From the NCBI GenBank assembly GCA_030680855.1, contig JAUXUN010000055.1, positions 1 through 64,000 on the forward strand: a DNA stretch of 64,000 nucleotides, in the 5' to 3' direction. Source of the stretch: Aestuariivirga sp. (GTDB taxonomy: Bacteria > Pseudomonadota > Alphaproteobacteria > Rhizobiales > Aestuariivirgaceae). The notes below the pieces were generated by a model. It saw nothing but the letters and a program-made list of their open reading frames with translations, had not been told where the DNA came from and made no database searches. Positions 33,574 through 45,574 of the stretch are shown here, one piece after another. Position numbers and translations under genes: made by a program. The number at the start of each line of letters is the position of its first letter. Positions within the stretch are counted from its first letter, which is position 1.

Positions 33574-34536
33574 ATGGATACGCTGTCGGAAATTCTGCGG
33601 ACGGTCCGGTTGAAAGGGGGCATTTTTCTCGACGCCCGCTTTACCCCCTCGTGGAGCGTTGCCTCCGCACTCACCCCCGACGACCTGCTGCCCTACATGG
33701 CAAAGGCGGAAGTGCTGTGCGCCCTGCATTATGTGATTTCCGGCGAAATGTATGTCGAGGTCGAGGGCGAAGAGCCACTCCATGTCAAAAGCGGCGAGCT
33801 TGTCCTGCTGCCGCGCAATACGCCGCATGTGATGTCGAACAGGCCCGGCCAGCGTCCCATCGATTCCGGGGAACTGATCCAGCCAGGCACTAACGGCGGG
33901 CTGTCGAGCATCGTCTACGGCGGGCCTGGCGGCCCACTCACCAACATCATCTGCGGCTATCTCGCCAATGAGGAAATGCGCAATCCGCTGATGGCAACGC
34001 TGCCGACGGTCCTGAAGGTCAACATCAACGAGGGCGCCTCGCGCGACTGGATTGAATCGTCGGTTCGCTACGGGGCGCAACAGCTCAGCGATGGCCACCT
34101 TGCCTCATCGTCGATCATAGCGCGGCTGTCGGAGCTGCTGTTCGTCGAGGCGGTTCGGGCCTATTCCGAATCCCAGAAGGTGCACGAGAAGCACTGGCTG
34201 CACGGGCTGAAAGATCAATATGTGGGACGCGCCCTTGCCGCCTTGCATGACCGCCTGTCGCACGGCTGGTCGGTGGCCGATATGGCCGAAGTGGCCGGCC
34301 TGTCGCGCAGCGCCTTCGTGGAGCGCTTCACGGCAGCCATGGGATCGCCGCCGATGCAGTATCTTGCCAAGTCGCGCATGCTGTTGGCCAAGGAGCTTCT
34401 GGCGGAGCGGCAAAAGTCAATCAGCCAGGTTGCCGCCGCCGTGGGCTATGGCGCGGAAGCCGCCTTCAACCGCGCCTTCAAGCGCGAGTTCGGCCTACCC
34501 CCTGCCCGCTGGCGCGACCAGCAGGCGGCGGCGTAA
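33574..34536 (+). CDS. AraC family transcriptional regulator (cupin_6 N-terminus)
   Basis: VADMAEVAGLSRSAFVERFTAAMGSPPMQYLAKSRM...VGYGAEAAFNRAFKREFGLPPARWR. Confidence 0.9.
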   Translation: MDTLSEILRTVRLKGGIFLDARFTPSWSVASALTPDDLLPYMAKAEVLCALHYVISGEMYVEVEGEEPLHVKSGELVLLPRNTPHVMSNRPGQRPIDSGELIQPGTNGGLSSIVYGGPGGPLTNIICGYLANEEMRNPLMATLPTVLKVNINEGASRDWIESSVRYGAQQLSDGHLASSSIIARLSELLFVEAVRAYSESQKVHEKHWLHGLKDQYVGRALAALHDRLSHGWSVADMAEVAGLSRSAFVERFTAAMGSPPMQYLAKSRMLLAKELLAERQKSISQVAAAVGYGAEAAFNRAFKREFGLPPARWRDQQAAA

Positions 34537-35802: not shown

Positions 35803-35866
35803 TGCCTTCAAGCGCGAATTCAGTGTGCCCCCTGGCCGCTGGCGGGGCCAGCAGGTGGCGGTGTAA
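35803..35866 (+). pseudogene. AraC 3'-end fragment (AFKREFSVPPGRWRGQQVAV*)
   Basis: Close match to the 3' end of the 33574-34536 AraC gene (34473-34536). Confidence 0.85.
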
Positions 35867-36439: not shown

Positions 36440-36775
36440 CTACTGCGCGAGGCCGAAAATCTTGATCCTGCCCAGTTCGGCGGACTGCCCTGAACCCGCT
36501 TCGAGGGCTATTCCGACAAAACAATTTCCGATGCGCAGGTTTGTTATCTTGCGGTCCTTGTTGTCCCAGTAAAGCTTCTCGCCGATTTCCCAGACCTGTT
36601 TCGGGCATTTCCTGACATCAAAAACCCCGGTTGTGACCACTTCGACAGTTTCGCCAAGTGATGCCCAGGACTTCGCCACCCCAAAAATCGCACCAATCTG
36701 CACACAGTCCCCGCTGTTGACTTCATAGGGCGCGGAAAGCGAGAGCGTGTTTCCCGGATGAATATAGTTGTTCAT
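36440..36775 (-). CDS. DUF2190-like phage-associated protein
   Basis: IHPGNTLSLSAPYEVNSGDCVQIGAIFGVAKSWASLGETVEVVTTGVFDV. Confidence 0.65.
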   Translation of the reverse strand: MNNYIHPGNTLSLSAPYEVNSGDCVQIGAIFGVAKSWASLGETVEVVTTGVFDVRKCPKQVWEIGEKLYWDNKDRKITNLRIGNCFVGIALEAGSGQSAELGRIKIFGLAQ

Positions 36776-36815
36776 GTCCTAACCTTTTCTTTGCCAATTC
36801 ATAAAAAATCCGCGC

Positions 36816-37154
36816 CTATTGGCTGGCCCAGATCACGCGACCGAGAAACTCGATATCAGACGCCTTGATCAGGGTTTCCTTCCGCTTCTGCCCGCCAAGG
36901 TTGATGCCGAGAAAATCTTCCGCCTTGTGAAAGAGCGTCCCGCACAATTGGCGCTTGTCCCTCGTTTCAATAATGACCCTGTCGCCGATCCGCACCGGAA
37001 CCGTGGCCGAAACGATCAATTGGTCGCCATGGCGATACAGCGGCAGCATGCTGTTGCCGTATACGTTGATTGCCTTGGCATCCTGAACGGAAAGCAAATC
37101 CAAATCGTCCCTCCACATTGCAGCGATGATAGCGCCTCCGAATCCGGGGGACAT
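36816..37154 (-). CDS. S24/LexA-like peptidase domain protein (repressor lacking N-terminal HTH)
   Basis: INVYGNSMLPLYRHGDQLIVSATVPVRIGDRVIIETRD. Confidence 0.75.
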   Translation of the reverse strand: MSPGFGGAIIAAMWRDDLDLLSVQDAKAINVYGNSMLPLYRHGDQLIVSATVPVRIGDRVIIETRDKRQLCGTLFHKAEDFLGINLGGQKRKETLIKASDIEFLGRVIWASQ

Positions 37155-37315
37155 AGGTAGCTCTACCTATTGGCCGCCGGGGCGGGAGGACGCACAGTGG
37201 AATAGTCCCCGCAGCCTGGGTAAACCGAACCCAGAAATACCAATCGGGCAATACATGGACCGCGCGTCAGCTCCCGCACCCCCCCTCAATGACTGGTGTG
37301 CGGTCCAATAATTTC
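37065..37315. repeat. ~250 bp direct repeat copy 1 (S24 gene 5' end + operator)
   Basis: Aligns with 39600-39842. Confidence 0.9.
37153..37170. promoter_or_regulatory. 18 bp inverted repeat overlapping S24 start codon
   Basis: ATAGGTAG-CT-CTACCTAT, identical at 39690-39707. Confidence 0.65.
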
Positions 37316-37377
37316 AAGGCACGGGGGCAATCTGCAAAAACAGCGATTCGCCACGGAGACTGTTCAGTTTCCAGCCA

Positions 37378-39663
37378 TCAGACGCCGTAATGCCGCAGCC
37401 CATCCAGAATGCCGGCGGCGTTGGCCTGCTCTGAAAAATACACATCCTTGGACTTTTTCAGAACGCCAACTTCCTTGCTGTAATTTCCCACGACTATGCC
37501 CCGCGAAAGCCCGCGCAGCATGTCGATGTCATTGCCGGAATCGCCAGCGGTGAGGACATGGGACATATCGATGCCAAACCGCCAGCTCACATAACGCAAG
37601 GCATGCCCCTTCGAGGCGCGAACCGGGAGAACATCAACACACCGATTTCGCGAGACGACGACCCTTGCCTGCAATGAGCTCTTCCGCAAGAGCGTCTTGA
37701 TCGCGCGTGCCGCAGTTGGCAGGGGCCGATCCAGATAGTAGCTGATCTTGTCGTGGGTCTGGGCTTCGGGTTCCTGCGGCTCGAGCCAGTCAATCTGGCT
37801 GAGGAGAGCGCGGATTTCATGGGGCTGCCAGCGAAACTGAATATGCCGGTGCCAGTGTGTATCCTGGTTGAATCTGCCAAAATTATAATCAATCCGCGTG
37901 CCCACCGAGGTAATCAGCAAGCTCGGATCGGGCAGCCTGCTTTCCTCCATGAAAGCCCGGGCGCTCTGCAGGTTCCGGCCAGTAGCGATTCCGAACAGTA
38001 TATCGTCGCGGTCATTGATAAGGTCAGTCAGCTGCCGCATCGCCCGGTCATCACCGGTCAAGGTATCGTCAATGTCGCAGACGAGATAGTGCCTGGCGGT
38101 GGCGAACTGCTTCACCCGTTTTCGAACGGAAGGCGCCGCCCTCCGGTCGGGGGTAAGCTGCTTCACCAATCTCAGGTAGCTCGCAATATGCCGCTGCCAT
38201 GTGTAGAAACGCGAGACGTTCTTTTTGCCAGCGGCGGACAAGGCGCGCCAGCGGGCCGGATCGGCAATGAGGCCCGAAATGGCCTGGGCGGTCTCCTCGA
38301 AGTTTTCGGGATCGACAGTCAAACCGTGACCGCAATTCTTCAAGACATCACTCATCCCGCCGGCACCCGAACTGACCACAGGCACACCCGCCGCCGCGGC
38401 CTCGACCAGCGTCAGCCCAAAATTTTCGTGCTTGGACAGCGCGAGAGAGACACCGCGGGTGTTGCGGGCATGCTGATACAGCGCTGTGACAAGCTCGGGG
38501 CTATGCGTTTTCGGGTACGCGACGCTGCCGTGGAGATCATAGAGATCAATCAAATTGAACATTTCCAAATACAGGTCACGCTGCGGCTGGCCGATGGAAT
38601 CCAGATCGGTGCGCAGGCCAATGAAAAGATACAAATTGGCCACGTCCTTCAGGTTGGAACGGCCAAATGCATGGATTGCGGCAGCCGTGTTCTTTTGCGC
38701 GTCAGGCCTGGCAATGACAAGCAGCGCAGGCTTGGCGGGATCGGCCAGGAACTTCGTTCCAATGCTCCTGAATTCCTTCAGGGCCGATGCGGACAGCCGG
38801 GTCCTGAGTTTTTCTATCTCGCACCCCGGAGGCAAAATGCGCATCCTGTCCTTGTCATAATGGTCGTATCTGGCGTACTGGGTCTCCACTTCGTTGCTGG
38901 TGCTGGCAATGACCAGCTCGGCATTCTCCAACGTTTCTTCTTCCGCCTCAATGCGCTCGCGAAAATGGAATTTGCGTTCAGAGGCACGGGGACTCATTCC
39001 CTCGGAGAGGATTCTCTCCCGCTTGAACCGCCCCAGCGAATGCGCCGTATAGAAGACTGGAATGCCGAGTATCTTCGCTATTCGCGTGGCGACAAGGCCG
39101 CCGTCAGCATAGTGCCCGTGAATGGCATCCGGAACCTCGCCCTGATCGCGAATATAACGAAGCGCGTTGTCGATGAATTCCTGCAGGTGGGGCCAGAGCT
39201 GCTCCTTTGGCAAATAGCGCTCAGGACCACAGGCCAGGCGCACAATTCGTGCCCGGTCGGCCACCACCTCGATTTTTTCCGCGTAATCAGCGGAAAGCCG
39301 GACGTCATTGATCTTCCGGGTGAGAAGCTCCACGCGATGCACGCTGCGCGCTTTCCCCAGCCGCCGCAAAAGCTCCAGAACATACTTGGTCTGCCCGCCG
39401 GTATCGGCATCCACGCCGATCTCCGGCGATTCAGAACGAAAACGCCCATGAATGCTGACGTGCAGAAGGTATAGACCTCTTTGCGAAGGCGTGTCTTTTG
39501 CGCTCAAGTTCACGTACGATCCCCGGATTGCATTGCCATTGAAGCAGGCTCCATTAATTGCCGGCATTTCTGTCGGGAACTGAAATGGAACGCTGCCATG
39601 AATATTGACTGCCTGGCATCCTGAACGGAAAGCAGGTCCAGATCGCCCCATCAATTGCGGCAA
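37378..39663 (-). CDS. sucrose-phosphate synthase with C-terminal HAD (SPP-like) domain
   Basis: HVSIHGRFRSESPEIGVDADTGGQTKYVLELLRRLG, ALSKHENFGLTLVEAAAAGVPVV, LVCDIDDTLTGDDRA, TAGDSGNDIDML; start may be GTG 39513. Confidence 0.88.
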   Translation of the reverse strand: MPQLMGRSGPAFRSGCQAVNIHGSVPFQFPTEMPAINGACFNGNAIRGSYVNLSAKDTPSQRGLYLLHVSIHGRFRSESPEIGVDADTGGQTKYVLELLRRLGKARSVHRVELLTRKINDVRLSADYAEKIEVVADRARIVRLACGPERYLPKEQLWPHLQEFIDNALRYIRDQGEVPDAIHGHYADGGLVATRIAKILGIPVFYTAHSLGRFKRERILSEGMSPRASERKFHFRERIEAEEETLENAELVIASTSNEVETQYARYDHYDKDRMRILPPGCEIEKLRTRLSASALKEFRSIGTKFLADPAKPALLVIARPDAQKNTAAAIHAFGRSNLKDVANLYLFIGLRTDLDSIGQPQRDLYLEMFNLIDLYDLHGSVAYPKTHSPELVTALYQHARNTRGVSLALSKHENFGLTLVEAAAAGVPVVSSGAGGMSDVLKNCGHGLTVDPENFEETAQAISGLIADPARWRALSAAGKKNVSRFYTWQRHIASYLRLVKQLTPDRRAAPSVRKRVKQFATARHYLVCDIDDTLTGDDRAMRQLTDLINDRDDILFGIATGRNLQSARAFMEESRLPDPSLLITSVGTRIDYNFGRFNQDTHWHRHIQFRWQPHEIRALLSQIDWLEPQEPEAQTHDKISYYLDRPLPTAARAIKTLLRKSSLQARVVVSRNRCVDVLPVRASKGHALRYVSWRFGIDMSHVLTAGDSGNDIDMLRGLSRGIVVGNYSKEVGVLKKSKDVYFSEQANAAGILDGLRHYGV

Positions 39664-39842
39664 TGATAGCGCCAGCGAATTCCGGGGACATAGGTAGCTC
39701 TACCTATTGGCTGCCGGGGTGGGAGCAAGCAGAGTGGAATGGCCCCCACAGTCTGGGTATCCCGCACTCAGAATTACCAATCGGGCAAAAATGGACCGCG
39801 CATCAGCTCCCGCCCCCCTCAATGACTGGTGCGCGGTCCGGC
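39600..39842. repeat. ~250 bp direct repeat copy 2
   Basis: Aligns with 37065-37315, contains the same ATAGGTAGCTCTACCTAT palindrome. Confidence 0.9.
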
Positions 39843-40885
39843 AAGTTTAAGCCTTGCAGGCCGCTCTCCTGAGCGGATGCCGGCGAGAGCGCGTCGCGCA
39901 GCGCCATGCCGTATTGTCGGCCATCAATGCGCAAGTGGCCTTCCTTTGTTGTCCAGATCGGTATTGGATCCGATATTGCGCCCACAAAACTGCCGTCGGC
40001 CCGGTGATTCAGAAATGCCATGAACACGGGCTTGCCTTCCCGTGTGCGGAGAAAGCGCCCGCCGTAAAACCGGCCCACCGAGTCGCCTCCAAAAAAACTG
40101 TCTTCGACCAGTTCAAAGGGGCCCGACGGCGATCTGGAGCGTATGTAATGTGTTCCCGTCACGGCTCCGGTCTTGCCCGTCGCCAGGTAGGTGGGCGCCA
40201 TGTGCCGTGATGCATTGCTGAAGAGGCAAAACCACCAGCCATCAAGTTCAAATATCTGGGGCACCTCCATCTCGCCGTAGTAACCGATCCGGAACAGGGG
40301 CTTTTCGACTTTCCAAGCCAATAGGTCCGGCGATGTTGCCTGGCCGATTACCCCGCTGCCGCCGGGATGCCCGTCCTTCTCGCGCGCCGTAAATATCATG
40401 CGCCAGCCGCTGCCGGACGGATCCGGATAGACCCATGGATCGCGAAACGCCTGGTCATGCCAGCGGGAGATATCATAGGTCTCGTAGATGTCGGGATCAA
40501 TTTCCAGCAACGGACGGTTGCCAAGTTTGACCCAGACAAAGAGATCGTCAGAGACGGCCGCCCCGATACGCTGGTACTTTCTTTCTTCCGACAGCATGGT
40601 GCCGGTATAGAACATCATCCATTTGCCGTCGGGCCGCTTCACGACCGAGCCTGTCCAGGTTGTTCCGTCGTCCCAGTAGGGCGGATCCGATGGCTTAAGC
40701 ACGATTCCTTCGTACTTCCAGTTGATCAGGTCCTGCGAGGTGGCGTGGCCGATCCGCGCGTGGGGATGGCGGAGATCGGCATGGTCACTGGTTTTGGGCG
40801 CGGTGAGGAAGAACAAGTGAAGTGTCTCCTCGTGCCATGCAAACCAAAAGTCCCATACATAGCTCCCGGGTATTTCAAAGGCCAT
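39803..40885 (-). CDS. GH32/GH43-like glycoside hydrolase (beta-fructosidase fold)
   Basis: YVWDFWFAWHEETLHLFFL, WTGSVVKRPDGKWMMFYTGT, FRDPWVYPDPSGSGWRMIFTAR, EVPQIFELDGWW. Confidence 0.7.
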   Translation of the reverse strand: MAFEIPGSYVWDFWFAWHEETLHLFFLTAPKTSDHADLRHPHARIGHATSQDLINWKYEGIVLKPSDPPYWDDGTTWTGSVVKRPDGKWMMFYTGTMLSEERKYQRIGAAVSDDLFVWVKLGNRPLLEIDPDIYETYDISRWHDQAFRDPWVYPDPSGSGWRMIFTAREKDGHPGGSGVIGQATSPDLLAWKVEKPLFRIGYYGEMEVPQIFELDGWWFCLFSNASRHMAPTYLATGKTGAVTGTHYIRSRSPSGPFELVEDSFFGGDSVGRFYGGRFLRTREGKPVFMAFLNHRADGSFVGAISDPIPIWTTKEGHLRIDGRQYGMALRDALSPASAQESGLQGLNLPDRAPVIEGGGS

Positions 40886-41040
40886 TCCATTCCCTTTAGT
40901 TTCAGCTTAGGCATTGCTGTAGTTGAAGTTCAGTGGGTCAAATGTTTGGCCAATTTAAGGATTAAATTCTGTAGGTGCCAGTACCCATAACGCGGCACGC
41001 CGGTTTTGCCTATAGCGCCTGCGCGCGCGGCCCAATGAAT

Positions 41041-41652
41041 TCAGGGCTTGGGCGGCAATATCACGAGCAGGTAGCGGATGAGCTGGGGCAAGGATGTGGC
41101 CTGCATCTTGGCCAGGACGCTGGCCCGGTGATGGTCCACGGTGCGCACGCTGATGGAAAATGTCGAGGCAATGGCAGCACTCGAGTAGCCTTCGGCCACC
41201 ATTTCGGCCACGGATTTTTCACGCTCGGTCAAAAGCCCAAAGCGCGCCATGAGGGATTTTTCGTCCGGCCCGGCGCTTGCTGTCGGCTTGCGCTGCTCGA
41301 TGGCGCTGGTGATGGAGGCAACGAGCTGTTCGTCGTCAACCGGCTTCTCGATGAAATCGAAGGCGCCGTTGCGCATGGCCTGCACCGCCATGGAGATATC
41401 GGCGTGGCCAGTTATGATGATCACCGGGAGGCCCGCGGCGGTTTGGGCCAGCATGCGCTGCAGGCTCAAGCCGTCCATGTCAGGCATGCGCACGTCCAGC
41501 ACGACGCAATCGGGAGCCGATTTCTGGATCCGCTCCATCGCATCTCGCGCGTTGCCGCTTGATGCTGTCTTGAAGCCATAGGTGGCAAGGACCGAGGAGA
41601 GGGACGTGCGCACCGATTGCTCGTCATCGACAATCAGTATCTTGTGCTTCAC
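41041..41652 (-). CDS. FixJ-type response regulator
   Basis: LIVDDEQSVRTSLSSVL, DCVVLDVRMPDMDGL, LuxR-type HTH C-terminus. Confidence 0.92.
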   Translation of the reverse strand: MKHKILIVDDEQSVRTSLSSVLATYGFKTASSGNARDAMERIQKSAPDCVVLDVRMPDMDGLSLQRMLAQTAAGLPVIIITGHADISMAVQAMRNGAFDFIEKPVDDEQLVASITSAIEQRKPTASAGPDEKSLMARFGLLTEREKSVAEMVAEGYSSAAIASTFSISVRTVDHHRASVLAKMQATSLPQLIRYLLVILPPKP

Positions 41653-43352
41653 TTGGCCTGCTCCAAACCGGCGGACAGGGGGAGCGTGAAGGCAAAGCGG
41701 GCGCCGCTGGAGACCGATTCATCGTACCAGATATCACCGCCATGGGAGCTTATGATGGTGTTGCTGAGCGAGAGCCCCAGGCCCAGGCCATTGTCCTTTG
41801 AAGATTTCAGGGGCTTGAACAGCATGGCTTTCACCTCAGGCAATATGCCAGCGCCCGAATCCGTGACGGCTATTTCCACATAGCCGGGACGGGAGTCGAG
41901 AGACACGTCAAGCTTGATGTTCCGTGCCTTGCCGCGCCCCTCCAAAATGGATTCCTTGGCATTGCGCACCAGATTGAGAACGACTTGTTGAATCTGCATT
42001 GCATTGCCCATGACTTGCGGAAGTTTTTCAGGCAGCCGCAAATCCCAGCTGATCCTGGAGGCGCCCAGTTCAGGCCCAATCAAGTCAGAACAGGTCAAGA
42101 GAAGTTGCCGGAGATTCAGCTTCTCCTTGGTGACATCGCCGCGCTCGAGGAATTTCCGGGTTTCCCGGATCAGGCTGGCGGCGACGTCAACTTCCTTGAC
42201 CGCCGCGTCGATATCCGACTTCAACTCCGCGTGCTTCACCCTGCCCTTGTCGAGCTTGCGCCGCGCGGCGCGGATGAAGCTGCGGATTGATGACAGGGGC
42301 TGGTTGATTTCATGGGCGAGGGCCGCGGCCATTTCGCTGGCAAGCGAAAGCCGCGAGGCCTGAAGCAGCGCTGCCTGGCTGTCACGCAGGCGGGCGTGGC
42401 TTTCCTCCAGCTCGAGCGAAATGCGCCGGCGCTCGGAGATTGTGGCCCCGAGGACAAGGCCGGTGGCGGAAAGCGAAATCATCAGCACCTGGAGTTCGGT
42501 GGCGATGGAGGGCTCGGACACACGCCAGAGCAGAATGGCGATCATCGCGGTGTCGCTGAGGAGAATGGAAAAGGCGGCCCCCATGAACCCGTCCCTGATG
42601 GCGAACACCAGGACGGGAAGGAAAACCAGGTAGAAGAACTTGAACTTGTCGGTATCCTGAAGGCCAAAGACGATGAAGGACGTGAGCAGGATCGCCAGCG
42701 TGGAAATCCAGTGGAACAGGGTGAAGCCGGCAAAATAGCGGATCCAGCCGCGCACCGGCGAGGCCACGAAGAAAAGCGGCACGATGGTGAGTACGCCGAC
42801 AACATTTCCGACCGAAAGCGTCATGGTATAATTGATCAGGTAGACCGGCGATATGTTCAGCGCCAGGGCGGCAATGACGAGGCGGGAAATGGCCGAGGCC
42901 AGCGTCACGATCGCGGCATAGATGATGAAGAGAACAATGCTTGCCGTGGTGGTGGTCTGAAGCGAGGGCAGGAATTTCCGCATGGCTGCCGCCGAGCCGG
43001 CAAAAATCAGGGCATTGGAAACAGCCGCGACAATTTCCCAGCCGAGCGTCAGGATCGAGGGATTGGTCAGTTTGCTGGCAAGCGACGCCAGGAAAATGAC
43101 CGGAAGGCTCGACCAGCCCAGAACAATGCCGCTGACGACGGCTAATCCCGCCTCGGGGTTCCACGGCGTGGAGCGAAGATCGGAAATCTGGAATATGTAG
43201 GAAATCCTGAAGAGCAACACATAGGCCAGAAAGAATGCAACATGCAGGGCGGCCTGGCGCGCCAAAGAAGGGCGCACGCCTGACGGTGCGGAGAATGCGT
43301 TGCGTGCCAGTCCGGTGAGCACTGTGTGATCCCTGTTGTTGACCCCGCCCAA
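41649..43352 (-). CDS. MASE1-domain sensor histidine kinase
   Basis: MASE1-like TM region; AHEINQPLSSIRSFIRAARRKL H-box; NAKESILEGRG; DSGAGILPEV; GLGLGLSLSNTIISSHGG. Confidence 0.92.
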   Translation of the reverse strand: MGGVNNRDHTVLTGLARNAFSAPSGVRPSLARQAALHVAFFLAYVLLFRISYIFQISDLRSTPWNPEAGLAVVSGIVLGWSSLPVIFLASLASKLTNPSILTLGWEIVAAVSNALIFAGSAAAMRKFLPSLQTTTTASIVLFIIYAAIVTLASAISRLVIAALALNISPVYLINYTMTLSVGNVVGVLTIVPLFFVASPVRGWIRYFAGFTLFHWISTLAILLTSFIVFGLQDTDKFKFFYLVFLPVLVFAIRDGFMGAAFSILLSDTAMIAILLWRVSEPSIATELQVLMISLSATGLVLGATISERRRISLELEESHARLRDSQAALLQASRLSLASEMAAALAHEINQPLSSIRSFIRAARRKLDKGRVKHAELKSDIDAAVKEVDVAASLIRETRKFLERGDVTKEKLNLRQLLLTCSDLIGPELGASRISWDLRLPEKLPQVMGNAMQIQQVVLNLVRNAKESILEGRGKARNIKLDVSLDSRPGYVEIAVTDSGAGILPEVKAMLFKPLKSSKDNGLGLGLSLSNTIISSHGGDIWYDESVSSGARFAFTLPLSAGLEQAK

Positions 43353-44644: not shown

Positions 44645-45574
44645 ATGGCTACAAATATTGCTACTATTCGCCCGCCCTCGGCTGAGAAGGCGGAACGCAA
44701 GATCAAGGCTAATATGCCGCTCGCCGAGCAAATCGCGACTCTCGGAGAACTGATTTCCCACCCGCCGACTAACAGCCGTGTCATTGATTTTGGTCCCAAG
44801 CTGGCTGAGTATGTGTTGACTGAGCTCAATCCGCACAACCGGCCAATGAAATCGGCTAAGATCAAGAAATACACGTCCGATCTTCTCGAAGGGCGCTGGG
44901 GCCTGACGGGTGACACGATAAAGTTTGGGTCTGACGGATTCTTGAAAGACGGACAGAACCGCTTGGCCGCAAGCGTTCGCGCGGGCAAAGCACTAACAAC
45001 GCATGTGGTTTTCGGAATCCAGCCCGACTTGTTTGCCCGAATGGATATTGGCAAGAACCGCACGGGTGGCGATGTGTTCGCAATTGCCAAGATCAACTAT
45101 GCCGGTCATGTGGCCGCTGCGGTGCGCTGGTTGCTCATTTTGACGAGCGACGATGCGGCGGATCGCGGCGCACAATTCTCAAACGAAGAACTGTTGACTG
45201 CCTATCGCGAAAATTTTGACGCCGAGCGGCTCGAACATTCGATCATCGCCGCGCTTGCGGTTCGCAAGACTTGTGGTCACCCAATTGGTCCGCTCGCGGC
45301 CCTTCACTACCTCTTCGCTGATCGTGACGAAAGGTTGGCGGATGAATTCTATGACCAATGGGCAAGCGGCCGCGCCAAGAAGGTCCGCGCTCCTACGCGC
45401 TCTTTGCAAAGCCGTCTCGTCGAAATCGCCGCCACTAGCAACAATCGCGTACATGAGAACGTCCGCAACGCCCTGATTATCAAGGCATGGAATGCGTTTA
45501 AGCAACGGCGTACGGTTACGAAGGCTGAAATGCAGCACTCAATTAGTGATCCAATGCCGGAGATCGCGGGCTAG
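44645..45574 (+). CDS. accessory protein with ParB-like 'DGQNRLAA' motif
   Basis: GDTIKFGSDGFLKDGQNRLAASVRAGKALTTHVVFGI; preceded by AT-rich region. Confidence 0.6.
   Translation: MATNIATIRPPSAEKAERKIKANMPLAEQIATLGELISHPPTNSRVIDFGPKLAEYVLTELNPHNRPMKSAKIKKYTSDLLEGRWGLTGDTIKFGSDGFLKDGQNRLAASVRAGKALTTHVVFGIQPDLFARMDIGKNRTGGDVFAIAKINYAGHVAAAVRWLLILTSDDAADRGAQFSNEELLTAYRENFDAERLEHSIIAALAVRKTCGHPIGPLAALHYLFADRDERLADEFYDQWASGRAKKVRAPTRSLQSRLVEIAATSNNRVHENVRNALIIKAWNAFKQRRTVTKAEMQHSISDPMPEIAG

Follow-up and report, generated by a model that had tools for sequence, protein, structure and literature searches.

The stretch of DNA analyzed here (the window) comprises 64,000 nucleotides of a contig of Aestuariivirga sp. 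(JAUXUN010000055.1, assembly GCA_030680855.1) from a 3.73-Mb genome, the organism being placed in the order Hyphomicrobiales. It carries genes for a predicted bifunctional sucrose-phosphate synthase/phosphatase (SPS-SPP; gene, SPS) and a GH32-like fructosidase, set among genes for a sensor histidine kinase (HK), a FixJ-like response regulator (RR), a short S24-domain protein, and a DUF2190 protein. In the order of transcription on the minus strand, the locus reads HK, RR, GH32, repeat copy 2, SPS, repeat copy 1, S24, and DUF2190. We think it fairly probable that an 18-bp dyad in both repeat copies is the box bound by the response regulator, and that laterally acquired sucrose genes came under this HK-RR pair by duplication of its target promoter in the window, or by insertion into its gene string in a relative, G009. 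The repeat would then be the promoter region of a two-component target gene in duplicated form, a view of the mechanism supported by conservation, position, and co-occurrence.

The two direct repeats of approximately 250 bp, which the first-pass annotation had reported on either side of SPS, were confirmed on the minus strand at 37065–37320 (copy 1) and 39605–39856 (copy 2), each with the same dyad. They were 85% identical, their alignment consisting of three blocks without gaps (135, 39, and 36 nt; 85–89% identity), and copy 1 used as a query retrieved copy 2 at E = 5e-70. The genome contained only these two copies. A dispersed or mobile repeat was rejected, as one copy each was present in G009 and G023 and none in the other genomes of the genus. 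Among the relatives that were compared in detail (G023, G009, G004, and G043), G023 is the closest. Copy 1 was 83% identical to the single copy of G023 and 74% to that of G009; copy 2 was 79% identical to the G023 locus. Because G023 has its single copy at this position and no sucrose gene, the repeat is, as read from these comparisons, the hairpin and promoter native to the short S24 gene, together with the 5' end of that gene. Copy 2 retains the hairpin and promoter with a decayed S24 5' end, truncated and with frame-breaking deletions. SPS is probably controlled by the duplicated region, since copy 2 sits directly upstream of it.

The dyad, ATAGGTAGAGCTACCTAT, lies at 37153–37170 in copy 1 (the proposed RR box for S24) and at 39690–39707 in copy 2 (the proposed RR box for SPS), and is identical in the two copies, forming the most conserved part of the repeat. 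When copies 1 and 2 were aligned with those of G023 and G009, the longest two invariant runs were the dyad halves, ATAGGTAG-N2-CTACCTAT. The strict dyad TAGGTAGNNCTACCTA occurred in this genome only in the two repeat copies and once each in G023 and G009; a sample of 397 further genomes of the order, to which G009 and G023 did not belong, contained none. A -10-like TATCAT element stands 21 bp past the dyad in copy 1 (37126–37131) and copy 2 (39663–39668), and the same element, or a variant of one or two bases, was present at this distance in G023, G009, and G004. G004 and G043 each had two weaker GGT-N6-ACC-type dyads in the same gap. Class-II activators usually bind with the site centered near -41.5. 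A transcription start 6–7 nt past TATCAT, predicted near 37119–37120 for copy 1 and 39656–39657 for copy 2, would center the dyad near this position, which fits a class-II-like activator site.

A further dyad was found in G009 upstream of its GH32 gene, elsewhere on the contig, as an independent site scoring 21.5 bits with TATCAT at 22 bp. The matrix was built without this site, and its score was not reached in 10 Mb of simulated sequence. Since only two sites within 3 mismatches of the dyad were present in the G009 genome apart from that at S24, we estimate the chance of such a site within approximately 250 bp upstream of G009 GH32 at ~2e-4. Two other candidates for the regulon were rejected and treated as chance matches: a dyad on contig C48 of genome G000, located inside a large coding open reading frame (ORF), and a weak one on contig C112 of G043.

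Comparison of the repeats and flanks with relatives, which the first-pass annotation had proposed, revealed one locus in three states: empty, with a gene-string insertion, and with a promoter duplication. G023 has the kinase, the regulator, only one repeat copy, S24, and DUF2190, with neither SPS nor GH32; it therefore represents the empty site. Its colinearity with the window extends to 37320 and resumes at 41025; compared with G023, the window has GH32, copy 2, and SPS inserted. In G009, SPS lies 3' of S24-DUF2190 in the same direction, 66 bp from DUF2190 and behind a single repeat copy, and GH32 is located upstream of the kinase. Conservation of the cassette without repeats had been named earlier as speaking against control by the repeat; G009 does have SPS and GH32 with a single copy, but the promoter upstream of its SPS is still the same one. 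In G004 and G043, the kinase-regulator-S24 loci are diverged and contain no SPS. A G009-like ancestor, through tandem duplication followed by deletion, could have given rise to the window arrangement.

The kinase gene (41649–43352, minus strand) encodes MASE1 (Pfam, 1e-20), HisKA (4e-7), and HATPase_c (5e-20) domains, and adjoins and overlaps the response-regulator gene (41041–41652, minus strand; Response_reg 3e-33, GerE 1.5e-16). With a receiver, a GerE/LuxR helix-turn-helix (HTH), and a partner kinase, the regulator belongs to the NarL/FixJ family; against its best NCBIfam model, FixJ, it scored 199 bits, below the cut-off of 255, and hence it is not a FixJ equivalog. Kinase orthologs (E <1e-120) were found in 5 of the 37 genus genomes searched, and HK-RR-S24 is a chromosomal locus common to five of these genomes. 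The segment RTVDHHRAS of the regulator HTH, its DNA-contacting helix, is invariant in the five orthologs. We know of no member of the FixJ family for which this dyad sequence has been described.

A long hairpin occurs just 3' of the response-regulator stop codon in relatives (L044:6062-6134, L043:3224-3298, L045:9176-9226, and L162:5548-5606); its topology is the same across them although the sequence differs, and it resembles a terminator. In copy 2, the terminator-like hairpin (39793–39839, minus strand), which today is 3' of GH32, has a 10-bp perfect outer stem and a minimum free energy of -26.8 kcal/mol; that of copy 1 (37257–37306, minus strand) has its stem partly disrupted by mismatches (z-score 0.1). 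The possibility that the repeat encodes a structured RNA or riboswitch was rejected, as Rfam gave no match even with E up to 5, and a scan with an intrinsic-terminator consensus returned nothing useful.

In the mechanism that we propose, an older locus of MASE1 kinase, FixJ-like regulator, hairpin, promoter, S24, and DUF2190 would have gained the laterally acquired sucrose genes, with GH32 inserted between the regulator and copy 2, and SPS-SPP placed behind the copy 2 promoter. The phosphorylated regulator, bound to the dyad near -41.5 of the TATCAT promoter, would activate transcription from copy 1 into the S24 genes and from copy 2 into SPS-SPP. Transcripts of the HK-RR string would run on into GH32 and terminate at the copy 2 hairpin. 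In G009, one promoter would serve S24-DUF2190-SPS and the second dyad would serve GH32. The sucrose made by SPS-SPP would be a compatible solute or a reserve, which the fructosidase would remove. In this scheme, we infer the binding of the response regulator, activation over repression, read-through into GH32, the signal, and the enzyme activities.

The SPS gene (37378–39513, minus strand) most likely starts at GTG 39513 rather than at TTG 39663 as in the ORF list; an alternative TTG is at 39507. Its product matched Pfam S6PP (6e-65, 219.6 bits) and NCBIfam TIGR02471 above the cut-off, and TIGR02472 at 5e-152 with 506.7 bits, under the cut-off of 576. Glycosyltransferase and HAD phosphatase domains are both present, and the EX7E, DIDDT, and GDSGND motifs are intact; by these domains and motifs, the product is a predicted bifunctional SPS-SPP of sucrose synthesis. 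GH32 (39803–40885, minus strand) encodes a clan GH-J fructosidase-like protein with a GH32 N-terminal domain (78.9 bits against a cut-off of 22.1), the WDFW, RDP, and EVP motifs, and the Asp, Asp (RDP), and Glu residues expected of the family; GH68 and GH43 profiles also matched it. Sucrose synthesis and hydrolysis, as assigned in the first-pass annotation, is the right class of function. The fructosidase gene does not start past the second copy, as had been stated, but starts at 40885 on the minus strand and ends at 39803, with its last ~16 codons inside copy 2.

SPS was present in 3 of the 41 genomes searched, that of the window included, and one of these was a distant homolog with 39% identity. 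At fourfold sites, the window and G009 were 58% identical in SPS and 43% in HK and RR (P = 1e-4); GH32, with 51%, did not differ significantly. Since SPS is closer at these sites than the kinase and regulator, it was probably exchanged after the locus had diverged, though effects of codon use may contribute to the contrast. The same SPS (89% amino acid identity) was found on a contig binned as Planctomycetota, L048 (1–9043), followed 3' by genes for a DUF202-like protein, a tyrosine recombinase, an EgtB-like protein, and an osmoprotectant-type ABC transporter, the latter three named from their translations; this segment is a possible osmoadaptation island. An osmolyte role of sucrose in cyanobacteria is described in two papers (PMC6753628, PMC4390843). 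By analogy with that role, and from the class of enzyme, sucrose may serve as an osmolyte here.

Several points weigh against control by the response regulator. The dyad co-occurs with the HK-RR locus, and regulator and dyad are neighbors by descent, so that their co-occurrence is no proof of binding. The HK-RR locus is older than the sucrose genes, and the signal therefore need not be osmotic. No clear TATCAT was seen at the expected distance in G043, and a scan with the sigma-70 consensus detected no promoter at the locus. Upstream of GH32 in the window there is only an uncertain dyad (40971–40988, minus strand; 11.2 bits, with ~13 per Mb expected by chance), which is weak and has no TATCAT at the expected distance.

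The duplication might instead be a mere recombination scar, left when SPS and GH32 were inserted at the 3' terminus of the regulator gene; copy 2 would then play no part in SPS expression, and SPS would use its own promoter or upstream read-through. Both copies begin at the regulator stop codon and ~25 bp of the same sequence persists in the regulator's own 3' flank, as if the insertion had duplicated gene ends; a similar 63-nt 3'-end duplication follows a nearby TetR gene, and the S24 reading frame in copy 2 is disrupted. We nevertheless regard a scar as unlikely, since the dyad and TATCAT of copy 2 are unaltered while the S24 remnant has decayed, nothing but copy 2 and ~100 bp separates GH32 from SPS, and G009 attains the same linkage of promoter and SPS through a different arrangement. 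A search of the relatives for the origin of this ~100-bp spacer gave no significant match.

It is distinctly improbable, in our judgment, that another regulator, such as a full-length HTH-S24 protein, binds the dyad and places SPS under S24-type control. Contig C4 of the same genome does encode a 214-aa HTH-S24 paralog that has the usual Ser and Lys, and the dyad adjoins the S24 gene. HTH-S24 homologs, however, are present in most relatives, yet the strict dyad was absent from the sampled genomes of the order; the dyad follows the HK-RR locus, the second G009 dyad is at GH32, distant from the S24 gene, and a site near -41.5 is more in keeping with an activator than with a repressor. The "phage-type S24 operator" of the first-pass annotation was an assumption, and no tested evidence links the S24 protein with the dyad. 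Very improbable, and largely refuted, is the arrival of SPS and GH32 as prophage morons with S24 and DUF2190, whose products match phage repressor families and a phage head-decoration family, respectively: the S24 locus lacks SPS in G023, G004, and G043, a search of 50,697 phage and 72,556 plasmid records with the DNA at 36440–37320 gave no match, SPS matches in the phage records reached just 13% of the protein, DUF2190 is the sole phage-like neighbor, and the window and the G023 chromosome are colinear around the site. The suggested phage origin was accordingly not upheld; taken together, the earlier observation was partly confirmed and its interpretation partly supported.

The short S24 gene (36816–37103, minus strand) encodes 95 aa from TTG 37103 behind GGAGG, with Peptidase_S24 (4e-8) as the sole domain matched; from ATG 37154, the protein would have 112 aa. 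This ATG, which overlaps the dyad, was rejected because its frame ends after 20 codons in G009, and the start is thus likely TTG 37103. The protein has no N-terminal HTH. In an alignment of the five short orthologs with 25 HTH-S24 homologs, the catalytic Lys of all 25 homologs was Gly in all five short proteins, and the nucleophile position read S/G/G/S/T, Ser being retained in two. A PDB profile search aimed at these catalytic residues retrieved no S24 chain. Without an HTH and with Lys replaced by Gly, the short protein would be unable to run a LexA-type circuit; of the earlier proposal that the upstream repeat controls SPS, the duplicated regulatory region directly upstream therefore stands, and the S24/LexA mechanism is not supported. 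We consider it quite unlikely that the short S24 proteins are dominant-negative dimer partners of the full-length HTH-S24 regulator. If they were, the short protein would be an anti-repressor derived from the repressor's own dimerization domain, and the two-component system would steer the sucrose genes plus, via this partner, the S24 regulon. The DUF2190/Phage_cement_2 gene (36440–36775, minus strand; Pfam 5e-22, PHROG head decoration 1e-21) is chromosomal and 3' of S24 in G023 and G009 as well.

Three further observations were made in the surroundings. Near the S24 repeat there is a second gene-end duplication, in which the 3'-terminal 63 nt of an AraC-type gene are repeated (84%) just past the TetR gene stop (34474–34536 and 35804–35866); the sequence is single-copy in G023. 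The protein of 309 aa encoded at 44645–45574 matches phrog_5931 (function unknown, 3e-50); neither Pfam nor NCBIfam gave a family for it. The segment 48115–50634 is 91% identical to contig C82 of G009, well above the HK-RR divergence, and has no comparable match in G023; it is possibly another laterally shared segment.

If the proposed mechanism holds, a foreign metabolic gene was placed under an existing two-component circuit through two different rearrangements, and this circuit, an uncharacterized system of the MASE1/FixJ type for which a specific binding site is predicted, is a candidate regulator of sucrose synthesis in bacteria. In its GT4 synthase and HAD phosphatase domains, whose motifs are intact, the SPS-SPP resembles the bacterial fusion enzymes that make sucrose as a compatible solute; it differs in that its nearest relatives beyond G009 and contig L048 are ~42% identical or below, and it is sporadic in the order. 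The short S24 protein has the C-terminal S24 domain of LexA/CI-type repressors, and HTH-S24 proteins of Hyphomicrobiales share its conserved IWASQ tail, whereas it departs from LexA/CI in the missing HTH and the altered catalytic residues. EupR of Chromohalobacter salexigens, which governs compatible-solute uptake, provides a precedent from the FixJ/NarL family for osmolyte control (PMC2964678). Like EupR and the NarL/FixJ systems, the locus described here has a regulator with a receiver and a LuxR-type HTH; unlike them, it has an adjacent kinase of the MASE1 type, with sucrose synthesis as the proposed target and a site that would have been gained by promoter duplication.

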